In this document: positions 49,519 to 57,586 of the stretch, in pieces
Layout: each line of letters starts with the position of its first letter
Position numbering within the stretch: the stretch's first letter is position 1
Source of the DNA: Candidatus Thiodiazotropha sp. (ex Myrtea sp. 'scaly one' KF741663)
GTDB lineage: Bacteria > Pseudomonadota > Gammaproteobacteria > Chromatiales > Chromatiaceae
Assembly: GCA_025655555.1 (NCBI GenBank)
Contig: JAHXIQ010000005.1
Coordinates: forward strand, 186,001-250,000
Direction: 5' to 3'
Length of the DNA: 64,000 nt
Notes under the pieces: generated by a model
Seen by the model: only the letters and a program-made list of their open reading frames with translations
What the model was told of the DNA's origin: nothing
The model's database searches: none
Program-made: the position numbers and the translations under genes

Positions 49519-49628
49519 GGCGAAATCCTTGCTCAAAAGTGCGGCATTTTAGCAGACTTCATAGTGAGAAGATGGGGGTGTGGTATAACCCCATCCGAAG
49601 ATTCCTTTCGGTGTAAGAGACCATTGAA

Positions 49629-49646
49629 ATAGTGCTAACAGGCCCA
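49629..49646. repeat. Solitary MITE-end-like sequence
   Basis: ATAGTGCTAACAGGCCCA resembles the inner-to-outer end of the element at 54521-54791 (TTAGTGTTAACAGGCCCT). It is a single end in the cysZ-lysE gap and shows no partner. The support is weak. Confidence 0.35.
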
Positions 49647-52248: not shown

Positions 52249-52270
52249 ATTAGTGTTAACAGGCCTTAGA
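52249..52270. repeat. Solitary MITE end
   Basis: ATTAGTGTTAACAGGCCTTA matches the right end of the element at 54521-54791 in all but one base over 20. There is no second end near it, so it is a truncated copy. It lies in the 300-base gap between the coiled-coil gene and the secreted His/Cys protein gene. Confidence 0.65.
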
Positions 52271-54256: not shown

Positions 54257-54392
54257 ACTGGGACAGGTTTATTTTTCAGTCGTGATCGAAGAACCACCCA
54301 CCAACAACGGGATACAGGGTGACGTAGGATCAAATGGAAGTAATTGGGGACAGAAGTAATTGGAAGTAATTGGGGACAGACCACGGTTTACT
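54257..54392. repeat. Dispersed GGGGACAG-type repeats
   Basis: The words AACTGGGACAGGTTTATTT (54256-54274) and two copies of AAGTAATTGGGGACAGA (54341-54357 and 54365-54381) occur here. Motifs of this form are scattered in many gammaproteobacterial intergenic regions, often near REP-associated transposase genes. No gene is present between 54178 and 54520. Confidence 0.55.
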
Positions 54393-54520
54393 AATCGTAT
54401 ACCCGGCAATTATTTCCAGTACCATCTGTAGTGAATATTGGTTTCCGGTGTCTGTCTGTTTCAGCGGAAGCAGCAACCATATTCTGTCTTGTAAGGGGCA
54501 GTTGTTTCCAATAACCTCTA

Positions 54521-54791
54521 CTAGGGCCTGTTAACACTAATCCAATGCGCCCTGTTGAGCCTGAAAAAGCGCCAATCAAGGCGTGAGGAGAGAAGTTTGG
54601 TTGTTCCAAATGAGCGACGAGCAACGCCGAGTGGCGCTTTTTCAGGCTTAACCCGAAGGGCTGGGGCTGTTTTTGCACCCAGCGGCGTTATCATTCGCTC
54701 ATGTAGCCGGGCTACACCACGCTCATTCTGTCTTGCTGGGTACAAAAACAGCTCCAGCAGGGTGCATTGGATTAGTGTTAACAGGCCCTAG
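54521..54791. mobile_element. 271-base MITE-like element with nested hairpins
   Basis: The terminal inverted repeats are 34 bases (54521-54554 and 54758-54791), beginning CTAGGGCCTGTTAACACTAA and matching at all but one or two positions. Inside are two further hairpins: arms 54558-54574 with 54632-54648 (AGCCTGAAAAAGCGCCA, perfect 17), and arms 54660-54683 with 54735-54758 (24 bases, two mismatches). The bases ATGAGCGA (54610-54617) in loop 1 and TCGCTCAT (54695-54702) in loop 2 are complementary, so a kissing contact is possible. It carries no transposase, hence a MITE or a REP-like cloverleaf. Its right end abuts the start codon of the sensor kinase. Confidence 0.85.
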
Positions 54792-56957
54792 ATGAAGCGC
54801 TCAAGGCTAGTTTTCAGGCATGTCGGACAGTTATTGCTCATCATGCTGCTGCTTCCCGTACTATCGCCATCATGGGCCGACGAGGAGGTCCGAATCGGCG
54901 TGCTGAGTCATCGTGGCGATGTGGTCACCCGTGCCATGTGGGGCCCCACTGCCGACTATCTCTCAGCCATCATCCCAGGACACCGATTTACCATCCGGCC
55001 GTTGAAGTTCGATGAAGTGAATCCTGTGGTCGATGCCGGTGAAGTGGATTTCGTGCTGGTCAATCCGGGTATCTACGTCAATCTGGAGGTGAAGTATCGT
55101 GTCTCGCGTATCGCCACTCTCTACAACCGACGTAACGATGTACCCTACAAAATCTTCGGTGGGGTAATTTTTACCCGCAAGGATCACCCGGAGATCAACA
55201 CGCTGGAGGATCTGAGAGACCACAGTTTTATGGCGGTCTACTCGACTTCTTTGGGTGGATTCCAGATGGCCATGCGTGAAATGCTCGATAGCGGTATCGA
55301 TCCCTATCGGGATCTCAAGTCCCTTGAGTTCGGTGGTATTCACGATCTGGTGGTGATGTCCGTTTTGCAGGGTGAGGTGGATGTGGGCACCGTGCGTACG
55401 GATATTCTGGAGCGTATGGCCTCTGCCGGCACGATCGATATTAATGATTTCCACATCATCAACCCGAGGCAGGAACCGGAGTTCCCTTTCGCCCTCAGTA
55501 CCCGGCTCTATCCTGAGTGGCCCTTCAGTAAGGTGGCGCACACGGCAGACACCTTGGCGCAGCAGGTGGCGGTGGCGTTGTTGCAGATGCCCCACGACCA
55601 TACGGCAGCGCTGGCAGGGAAGTATGCGGGCTGGACCATCCCACTCGATTATCAGCCGGTACACGATCTGTTTCTGGAGTTGAAACTGCCGCCCTATCAG
55701 AATCTCGGCAAGTTCACCCTCTCCGATGCCATTGATCGTTATCGCTATTGGCTCATGGGTGGTCTGCTGGTGCTGCTGTTCATGCTCTTTATGACGTTCT
55801 GGGTGATGCGACTCAATCAGGAACTGCACAAGGCCAAGAACCGGTTGGAGCAGCAACATGAACTGATTCTCGATTCTGTGGCCGATGGTATTTATGGGGT
55901 TGATCTGCGTGGGCGCTCGACCTTTTTCAACAGAGCTGCGGAGCGCATCACGGGTTGGGCGGCCGATGAGGTCATTGGGTTCAATCAGCATGAAATCCTC
56001 CACCATACACATGCCGACGGTTCTCCCCATCGGGCTGAAGAGTGTCCGGTCTATCAGACGTTTCGTGACAGTCAGGCGAGGTATATCTCGGATGATGTCT
56101 TCTGGCGCAAGGACGGCAACAGCTTTCCCGTGGAGTACAGCAGTACGCCTATCTGGGATGAAAACGGTAAGACCGTGGGTAGCGTGGTGGTGTTTCGCGA
56201 TACCACCCGGCGCAAGAAGGCGGAAGAGGATTCGCGTCAGCATCAGGTGGAGCTCGCCCGTGTCGGGCGGCTGAGTACCTTGGGTGAGATGGCCTCAGGT
56301 ATCGCTCATGAACTGAATCAGCCACTGACAGCGATATCCACCAATGCCCAGGCGAGTATTCGCTTGCTGGAGTCCAATAGCTCAAATCTTGATGTGTGTA
56401 TCGATGTGATGGAGCGCATCGCAGGCCAGGCAGATCGGGCGGGGGAGATCATTCGGCAACTGCGGCGGTTTGTCAGGAAGGAGCCACTGGAACGCGCTGA
56501 GGTTAATATCAACAATTTGGTGAATGCGGTTGTGGTACTGATCAGACCGGAGATCAGGCGTGCTAACGTCACCCTCGAGCTCGTACTTGATCGGGATCTC
56601 CCGAAGATCTCGGTACAGCCGATACAGATCGAACAGGTGATACTCAATCTGGCTCGGAATGCCATAGAGGCCCTGCAGGAGAATCAACAGGATGAGCGTA
56701 AGCTGAGCATCCATACCCGTCGGGTCGGTGAGCAGCGGATCGAAGTATGGGTCAGAGATAACGGACCAGGCATCAAGCCTGAAGTGGCCGACACGCTATT
56801 TGATCCCTTCGTTACCAGCAAATCCCAGGGTATGGGGCTTGGGCTCTCCATCAGTCACGGGATCATTGGCGCTCACGGTGGTAAACTGGTAGTCAATTCC
56901 GCCTATCAAGAAGGCGCCGAGTTCACCTTTTATCTACCCTTATTGGAGGCCAGCTGA
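54792..56957 (+). CDS. TtrS-like sensor kinase: PhnD-type binding domain, PAS, kinase
   Basis: A 721-residue membrane kinase. A signal sequence (LLLIMLLLPVLSPSWA) precedes a periplasmic PhnD/TtrS-type substrate-binding domain (RIGVLSHRGDVVTRAMWGPTADYLSAIIPGHRF...VDFVLVNPGIYVNLEVKY). One membrane helix (YWLMGGLLVLLFMLFMTFWVM) and a PAS domain follow, then a kinase core with phosphoacceptor GEMASGIAHELNQPLTAIS, N box LNLARNAIEAL and glycine boxes DNGPGIKP and GMGLGLSIS. TtrS proteins sense tetrathionate. The start ATG directly follows the MITE, whose last bases provide AGGCCC as the only upstream purine patch. The regulator gene follows after 2 bases, and soxB is next. Confidence 0.92.
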   Translation: MKRSRLVFRHVGQLLLIMLLLPVLSPSWADEEVRIGVLSHRGDVVTRAMWGPTADYLSAIIPGHRFTIRPLKFDEVNPVVDAGEVDFVLVNPGIYVNLEVKYRVSRIATLYNRRNDVPYKIFGGVIFTRKDHPEINTLEDLRDHSFMAVYSTSLGGFQMAMREMLDSGIDPYRDLKSLEFGGIHDLVVMSVLQGEVDVGTVRTDILERMASAGTIDINDFHIINPRQEPEFPFALSTRLYPEWPFSKVAHTADTLAQQVAVALLQMPHDHTAALAGKYAGWTIPLDYQPVHDLFLELKLPPYQNLGKFTLSDAIDRYRYWLMGGLLVLLFMLFMTFWVMRLNQELHKAKNRLEQQHELILDSVADGIYGVDLRGRSTFFNRAAERITGWAADEVIGFNQHEILHHTHADGSPHRAEECPVYQTFRDSQARYISDDVFWRKDGNSFPVEYSSTPIWDENGKTVGSVVVFRDTTRRKKAEEDSRQHQVELARVGRLSTLGEMASGIAHELNQPLTAISTNAQASIRLLESNSSNLDVCIDVMERIAGQADRAGEIIRQLRRFVRKEPLERAEVNINNLVNAVVVLIRPEIRRANVTLELVLDRDLPKISVQPIQIEQVILNLARNAIEALQENQQDERKLSIHTRRVGEQRIEVWVRDNGPGIKPEVADTLFDPFVTSKSQGMGLGLSISHGIIGAHGGKLVVNSAYQEGAEFTFYLPLLEAS

Positions 56958-56959
56958 GC

Positions 56960-57586
56960 ATGGATCAGACGACACCGACGGTCTTTGTCGTGGATGATGA
57001 CGAAGAGGTGCGTAATGCACTGAAATTACTGCTCGAGTCGGTTGGGCTGCCTGTGATCTGTTATGCCTCGGCACTCGACTATCTGGAAAAATTCGACGAG
57101 CGTCTGCCGGGGTGTCTGGTGGTGGATATTCGTATGCCCGGCATGAGTGGGCTCGATATGCAGGAGAAGCTGGCTGAAAATCCGATCCACCCGCCGGTCA
57201 TCATCATCACCGGTCATGGTGATGTGCCGATGGCAGTTCGCGCCGTGCAGGCGGGGGCGGTGGACTTTATCGAAAAACCGTTTCGCGACCAGATCCTGCT
57301 CGACAGTGTGCATCGTGCGATCGAGATGGATGCGGAGCGGCGGGGTGAGGCTTCGCGTCAGTCAGAGATCCACGAGCATCTCAGCCAGCTCACACCGAGA
57401 GAGCGCGAAGTGCTGGACCTGGTCATCGGTGGTATGCGCAATAAGAATATCTCGGAAAAGCTGGGTATCACGCTGTCTACCGTGGAGGCGCATCGTTCCC
57501 GGGTCATGGAGAAGATGCAGGCGGATTCACTCTCCCATCTCATGCGTATGATGCTTACCCTTGAACAGGATTATGGAAAACCATAA
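56960..57586 (+). CDS. FixJ/TtrR-like response regulator
   Basis: A 208-residue regulator. The receiver (about 5-120) has FVVDDDEEVRNALKLL, the phosphoacceptor in CLVVDIRMPGMSGLDM, ITGHGDVPMAVRAVQAGAVDFIEKPF. The LuxR-type helix-turn-helix is LTPREREVLDLVIGGMRNKNISEKLGITLSTVEAHRSRVMEKM. It is probably phosphorylated by the kinase encoded 2 bases upstream. Its location next to soxB suggests control of sulfur oxidation genes (inference); the 430-base gap to soxB is large enough for its operator. Confidence 0.94.
   Translation: MDQTTPTVFVVDDDEEVRNALKLLLESVGLPVICYASALDYLEKFDERLPGCLVVDIRMPGMSGLDMQEKLAENPIHPPVIIITGHGDVPMAVRAVQAGAVDFIEKPFRDQILLDSVHRAIEMDAERRGEASRQSEIHEHLSQLTPREREVLDLVIGGMRNKNISEKLGITLSTVEAHRSRVMEKMQADSLSHLMRMMLTLEQDYGKP

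Follow-up and report, generated by a model that had tools for sequence, protein, structure and literature searches.

The window, by which we mean the whole 64,000-nt stretch of DNA analysed here, carries a MITE of 265 bp (54524–54788) between two TA dinucleotides, the left (54522–54523) and right (54789–54790) copies of the target duplication. Its terminal inverted repeats are 31 bp long and pair with each other (left, 54524–54554, plus strand; right, 54758–54788, minus strand); with the CTA/TAG flanks counted in, 54521–54554 and 54758–54791 agree in 33 of 34 positions. The outer ~18 bp of the left repeat are similar to IS5-family ends and the inner 13 bp vary from copy to copy, still pairing with the other end. 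The repeats enclose two hairpin modules separated by a 7-nt spacer (54653–54659) with CCCGAAGGG at its centre. Module A (54554–54652, plus strand) has a perfect 17-bp stem (54558–54574/54632–54648), a purine-rich top strand and a type-1 tip, TTTGG/CCAAA. Module B (54660–54758, minus strand) has a 24-nt stem (54660–54683/54735–54758) that is 92% complementary, its purine-rich strand below and a type-2 tip, TGTAG/CTACA. In addition, ATGAGCGA at 54610–54617 is the exact reverse complement of 54695–54702. An earlier note on this DNA had listed the terminal repeats, the 17-base and 24-base hairpins and the 8-base complementarity between their loops, and all of these are present.

The predicted RNA fold of 54511–54801 has an energy of −167.9 kcal/mol, versus −93.6 (sd 5.1) for 200 dinucleotide shuffles, none of which was as low (z-score −14.46). 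A search of Rfam gave no matches at the gathering score, the best one having an E-value of 0.27 and 18.6 bits against a cut-off of 73. Among ORFs of 80 aa or more, a single one overlaps the MITE (95 aa, 54391–54678, minus strand), and it extends into the flank.

An ORF encoding phosphonate-binding, PAS and histidine-kinase domains (54792–57586) begins with an ATG 3 bp beyond the end of the MITE, and a LuxR-type response regulator comes after it. The leader of this ORF may have been replaced by the insertion. Just upstream of the MITE, GTAATTGGGGACAGA is found as a direct repeat (54340–54354 and 54366–54380), with no such repeat expected by chance; it resembles repeats found beside Y1 transposases. 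The window also contains two solitary terminal-repeat-like sites on the minus strand (49628–49645 and 52249–52266, with two mismatches and one, respectively), with 0.02 matches expected by chance across the whole window.

Copies, target site and mobility

The genome from which the window comes (3.98 Mb in 9 contigs) yielded 103 BLAST matches to the element, many of them to the palindromic ends only; 23 span the query end to end. Among the 56 genomes searched, 28 had matches, including all 22 members of the genus (own genome counted) and 6 of the 34 others, and there was no match in phages. TA is found on both sides in 104 of the 112 distinct extracted copies longer than 150 bp, and the target pattern YTAR fits 100 of the 112. 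One relative (G013) has the same gene start with the element absent, that is, an empty site, whereas another (G018) carries the element at the same place as in the window. Its many copies, terminal inverted repeats, TA duplication with an empty site and non-coding sequence bear out the earlier identification of the element as a MITE. Some copies of 53–57 bp, with TA on both sides, contain nothing but the two terminal repeats (L070, 2229–2281; L074, 1407–1463; L079, 2502–2558), so that the ends can persist without the body.

Several copies in genome G000 and its relatives carry a 24-nt hairpin, ACCCCAAGGGCACTTCCTTCGGGG, inserted at various positions of the MITE, which thereby grows from 265 to 292 and 319 bp (e.g. 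L013, L014, L024 and L026); the window copy has no such insert. This hairpin follows GGYGY-like sites and is also arrayed at 27-bp spacing; 14 of its 29 contexts show identical direct repeats of 3 bp. It has 23 matches in the own genome and is present in 17 of 22 genomes of the genus and in none of 18 others (at most two mismatches), with look-alikes in other genera at L057 and L239. It looks like an ultra-small mobile or slippage-spread repeat. The small dispersed repeats of cyanobacteria, too, are tiny hairpin-forming repeats found at several places inside other repeats, but the 24-nt insert has another sequence and other hosts and often comes with a 3-bp direct repeat.

Two inverted copies of one module

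Hairpins A and B turned out to be a single 99-nt module present twice, head to head and 7 nt apart: A and the reverse complement of B share 51 of 99 letters, whereas 2000 shuffles gave 25.4 on average and never more than 40. The 8-base complementarity of the loops exists because the hairpins are inverted homologues, i.e. it is a matter of descent. The earlier note had proposed a kissing contact in addition to a three-way junction, and one possible reading is that the kissing loops hold this junction fold. The complementarity is indeed exact, and 93.0% of the cells are paired in 80 copies. However, the inverted homology explains this match, the eight pairs covary no better than shuffled ones (0.062 vs 0.059; 79 of 500 shuffles reach this score), and one particular pair is broken in 34 of the 80 copies. 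No compensation for the kissing bases, which the note had suggested looking for, was found in other copies, and the bases belong to the core helix within each module. We therefore consider the kissing contact extremely improbable. At locus L118 (genome G016), the tip of module B is of the TTTGG/CCAAA type usual for module A, as if the tips had been exchanged between the modules.

Phylogenetic distribution of the module

Model R1 was built from 22 modules, those of the window copy among them (module A, which also has its stem pairs, scores 105.8 bits and module B 88.3 bits). Matches to R1 were found in 72 of 274 genomes of the class sample (62 of the 236 good genomes, and 59 of 222 genera) and in 80 of 398 genomes of the phylum sample, 26 within the class and 54 outside it, 44 of the latter from one family; these counts refer to drawn genomes and the filters lose weak matches. 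Carriers among plasmid records include Halomonas, Azotobacter and Pseudomonas aeruginosa, as well as Methylophaga and Candidatus Magnetococcus massalia, in each of which one module was matched. Metagenome-assembled carriers come from Salinisphaerales, Nitrococcus, Zetaproteobacteria and one bin called Acidobacteria, which may contain a misbinned contig.

Of the 57 loci searched with R1, 44 had two adjacent modules (convergent in 43) and 13 had one, a count based on 101 of the 106 R1 hits, with weak or same-stretch hits in L198, L200, L205, L211 and L228 excluded. Among 60 module pairs, which include a few near-duplicates, the gap is 7–9 nt in 55 and the body is 204–208 bp long in 54.

Compensatory changes in the stems

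In alignment A1, made of 80 copies (all 81 that are 265 bp long except L054, which comes from another family of the class), 94.2% of the stem cells pair. Double changes are seen in 34 of 95 pairs versus 15.8 in shuffled data (none of 500 as high), and the signal is lost when the pairing partners are slid. Thus, both internal stems are kept in other copies and their changes are compensated, and the claim that the element is more elaborate than a normal MITE holds in a stronger form than was first proposed. The terminal repeats are paired in 98.6% of the cells in the 80 copies; their inner 13 positions are copy-variable, yet 1017 of 1040 cells are paired between the two ends of a copy, although a single fixed sequence should be enough for a transposase.

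Covariation extends beyond the genus. The covariation score is 0.656 for 22 modules from several genera (0.177 when shuffled) and 0.676 for the 105 modules of alignment A3 (0.176 when shuffled). There are 848 double-changed cells in A3 versus 287 in shuffled data, in an alignment that was made by model and so leans to structure, takes in the model-building modules and some near-duplicates, and has cells that count sequences, not events. The least extreme of five measures was the number of pairs with double changes in A3 (26 vs 23.1, with 12 of 500 shuffles as high). Helix 27–30/72–75 has no double changes in A3, and 27–75 pairs were no better than shuffled in A4 (13 of 35). The outer stem, the tip helix and parts of the tandem G.A core described below are kept by compensating changes across Proteobacteria. 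With a mean column identity of 65% (alignment A2), it is the shape of the module, but not the sequence of its stems, that is maintained in many bacterial groups.

A tandem G.A core with strand polarity

The 51-nt 'loops' of the hairpins are largely helical, with non-canonical pairs. In module A of the window copy, the 5' side of this core (54583–54594, plus strand) is the partner of the 3' side (54611–54622, plus strand), with the pairs G54588.A54617, A54589.G54616 and G54592.A54613. The core was tested in a register with one base bulged next to the tip. In A3, positions 30–69, 31–68 and 34–65 form Watson–Crick pairs in 97, 83 and 95 of the 105 modules (shuffled means 62, 55 and 39; none of 1000 shuffles as high), and G35.A64 (88/105), A36.G63 (91/105), G37–C62 (91/105) and G39.A60 (95/104) lie between or beside these covarying pairs. 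Pairs 40–59 and 41–58, next to the tip, show no covariation in A3. In alignment A4 (35 modules from 19 loci), the Watson–Crick counts for 30–69, 31–68 and 34–65 were 30, 30 and 31, and those for G35.A64, A36.G63, G37–C62 and G39.A60 were 27, 28, 29 and 30 of 35, although this set is only nearly independent: L266 and L239 (in A3) appear to be one locus, and L270 and L274 are close. Without the bulge, 2 of 12 pairs exceeded all shuffles by small margins (28 vs 21.5; 24 vs 18.0) and no pair reached half of the modules with Watson–Crick covariation. An AAC bulge near the G.A pairs was likened by eye to a K-turn, but the strand order is wrong.

Because G.A on one strand is C.T on the other, the core has polarity. 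Owing to the inversion of the modules, one of them has the right sense on each strand of the element. The inner part of the purine strand folds better than its complement in 115 of 136 modules with RNA parameters and in 91 of 136 with DNA parameters (136 of 140 modules compared). Against side-shuffled controls, in which the letters of each side were kept (83 modules of exactly 99 nt), the purine strand is more stable under both parameter sets, with p 1e-6 for its inner part under RNA parameters. The strand difference exceeds the control with RNA parameters (p 5e-4) and falls below it with DNA parameters (−0.34 vs −0.75). The stems of A3 have no excess of G.T over A.C (118:108). This argues against one fixed strand being the sole target of selection and agrees both with a cruciform and with an element that can be read from either side. 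On the top strand of A1, the G.T to A.C counts are 57:16 in stem A and 47:119 in stem B; this lean towards G.T on both purine strands was set aside, since it comes largely from single pairs shared by descent. As for the earlier suggestion of a functional RNA or a single-stranded transposition substrate, the strand-polar tandem G.A core supports a folded strand, which may be RNA or single-stranded DNA.

Terminal repeats and the IS5 family

Around the 60 bodies, 41 have GGGCCTGTT-like sequences at both ends by a loose pattern. Other ends are GAGCCTRTC (3 bodies), GGGGGYGTT (2), CTGATT-containing sequences at both ends (2) and a GTGYCRTCA-like sequence (1), with the rest mixed or unclassified; the ends of L218 and L220 are GAACCTATCTCA. 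Similar ends were found on IS5_3 transposons (NCBIfam NF033580, IS427-like). In L258 and L259 they are GGGCCTGTTAACAC / GGGCGTGTTAACACTAAT, of the same kind as GGGCCTGTT, and in L250, L251 and L260 they are GAACC.ATCTCAAAATT-like, close to those of L218 and L220. Annotated IS5 elements, such as ISAba31, share the GGGCCTGTT-like ends and the TA target, and IS5 transposons with similar ends also occur at L148–L150, none of them from the own genome; of the 22 IS5 loci inspected for ends, 12 had them. The element is a TA-inserting MITE with terminal repeats like those of IS5-family (transpos_IS5_3) transposons, and at least two of the repeat types around the body resemble the ends of such transposons.

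In a tree of 51 of the 60 bodies (5 with unclear ends and 4 longer than 212 bp were excluded; L219, L270, L278, L279 and L280 were relabelled by eye as the commonest end type), the other end types are nested among the GGGCCTGTT-like ones. End types are clustered, with 6 changes in all versus a shuffled mean of 8.0 (as low in 1 of 200), and the commonest type needs at least 4 label changes, counted on starred branches alone. Since just 16 of the 48 inner branches carry a star, and there are long rows, the change count belongs to this tree and not to history. Different lineages of the body have different terminal repeats around them.

The ends are shared with IS5 transposons, but a helper was not found in the same genome by searches for IS5_3, PF13340 and P0001. 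The own genome has no full IS5_3 transposase (one match, E-value 4e-6, was below the cut-off) and no P0001 match. PF13340 had no match in 15 of the 16 genus genomes scanned, the own one included, and a helper search in the genus with PF13340 and an Aeromonas IS5 transposase gave clear matches in G006 only. Among 274 genomes, the presence of the module was not associated with that of IS5_3, either for all matches (32/72 vs 72/202, odds ratio 1.44, p 0.20) or for those over the cut-off (5/72 vs 20/202, p 0.63). Perhaps the helper has been lost, is a member of a different IS5 group or acts only occasionally. At L061, a 1642-bp stretch between paired ends was considered as an autonomous copy and rejected, its ORFs being not transposase-like by eye.

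Selection or templating between the arms

The matched arms could, in principle, belong to a neutral MITE, with palindromes kept matched by template switching or arm conversion and with loops whose likeness is due to shared ancestry alone. Some nearly identical copies are separated by double changes, which points that way, for example at columns 15–251, GC to TA, in copies with 2 differences in all. At 4–7 differences, doubles exceed the number expected under independence (15, 13 of them Watson–Crick to Watson–Crick, vs 3.1). However, near-identical copies mostly differ one-sidedly, with 132 single versus 10 double changes in 40 nearest-neighbour pairs (at most 10 differences). The ratio of single to double changes is 24:1 at 0–3 differences and 249:15 at 4–7, and the double share of the changed pairs rises with divergence from 0.04 to about 0.65 at the largest distances, in a comparison of sequence pairs that are not independent. 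This is the course expected of mutation followed by compensation. Furthermore, templating would not keep G.A, A.G and G.A at set positions while their neighbours switch between GC, TA, CG and AT, as they do in modules with a mean column identity of 65% (A2), and the length of module and spacer is nearly constant. A neutral origin of the pairing is thus unlikely, although the doubles between almost identical copies indicate that templating between arms probably also takes part.

Possible function of the folded strand

The best reading, in our view (with a probability of about 0.6), is that the element belongs to an old lineage of MITEs mobilised by IS5 transposases, in which the body is maintained as a folded single strand, with one correctly oriented module per strand. 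The data show the architecture, mobility, covariation, G.A core, spread and differing ends around one body; that IS5 transposases move the element in trans and that its folded strand has a function is inferred. The transposase, of the IS5 family, would come from elsewhere and need the outer repeats only, and the body would be kept for its folding once a strand is single, in read-through transcripts or as single-stranded DNA. Owing to the inverted modules, either strand, in either direction of insertion, would present exactly one module competent to form the G.A core; the likeliest partner of this fold would be a protein recognizing it. Several observations fit this reading poorly: the missing full IS5_3 transposase of the own genome and the lack of association between module and IS5_3, the few doubles in almost identical copies (one at 2 differences), the absence of a G.T over A.C excess, which would be expected of RNA from one fixed strand, the lack of double changes in helix 27–30/72–75 and of covariation at 40–59 and 41–58, and the DNA-parameter strand difference that is smaller than the control.

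A role as a cis-acting RNA, in which copies are transcribed into adjoining mRNAs and the fold either is cut by RNase III or shields or regulates the message, has been proposed for other bacterial MITEs. It would be consistent with the RNA-parameter stability of the purine strand and the strand difference (p 1e-6 and 5e-4), with the position of the window copy 3 bp before the ATG of the histidine-kinase-domain ORF and with the ORFs present within about 350 bp on each side of 28 own-genome copies by a rough ORF call. The orientation of these neighbours, however, is unbiased in the same 28 copies (−+ 8, ++ 8, +− 7, −− 5), and the fold is tied to no one gene class. Stable stem-loops are described for MITE transcripts in PMC10969869. 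On balance, we regard a cis-acting role as rather doubtful.

Less probable still, and in our opinion improbable, is the recognition of single-stranded DNA hairpins by a Y1 transposase of the REP-associated type, which would make the element a REPIN within a MITE. An inverted hairpin pair with conserved mismatches does resemble REP doublets, the own genome has 3 Y1_Tnp matches and Y1_Tnp (PF01797) co-occurs with the module (63/72 vs 123/202, odds ratio 4.5, p 1.7e-5). On the other hand, 9 of the 72 module-positive genomes have no Y1_Tnp match, and Y1_Tnp also goes with IS5_3 (p 0.007), so that mobile-element load confounds the co-occurrence. The module consensus begins g..g and has neither a GTAG-like nor a CGTC-type foot, the tags of REP sequences according to the title of PMC3733652.

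Returning to the lineage of IS5-mobilised MITEs, we tentatively suggest, as a more speculative extension, that the body and not the ends is under selection. The body would then be a previously undescribed ~205-nt two-module tandem-G.A device that spreads in Proteobacteria on ends borrowed from successive IS5-family helpers, its folded single strand (RNA or single-stranded DNA) being bound by a putative protein through one functional module per strand. The interiors of MITEs are usually regarded as leftover filler, whereas here the interior is the more durable part: the fold and its non-canonical core outlast a large turnover of the stems, within several kinds of terminal repeats. The finding is real, and more interesting in another way than was first noted, as a widely conserved structured body in an IS5-type MITE and not as a kissing complex. 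It makes selection for structure within a non-coding transposon testable; the covariance model now allows such bodies to be found in other genomes, and the module is a defined substrate in the search for a binding partner.

Comparison with known systems

Like this MITE, the Correia/NEMIS and ERIC elements are palindromic MITEs located next to genes, with folded transcripts proposed. Their terminal repeats are different from those found here, and they are not known to have a conserved paired-module body.

Titles, the beginnings of abstracts, and the accessible parts of PMC10969869 and PMC3116915 contain no description of the element, subscription papers being mostly outside this coverage. REPINs and BIMEs (PMC3116915) share with this MITE two inverted hairpin units, a short spacer and a conserved form. 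Unlike REPINs and BIMEs, however, it has modules of 99 nt instead of 20–40 nt, set inside 31-bp repeats with a TA duplication, has no REP-type foot and is linked to Y1 transposases by a confounded co-occurrence only.

This MITE is also like the MITEs mobilised by the IS5 family (NF033580), which have terminal repeats, a TA target, non-coding sequence, many copies and IS5_3-like ends. It differs from them in that no full-length helper was found in its own genome and in its two-module body, which covaries, is widely conserved and occurs within terminal repeats of several kinds.
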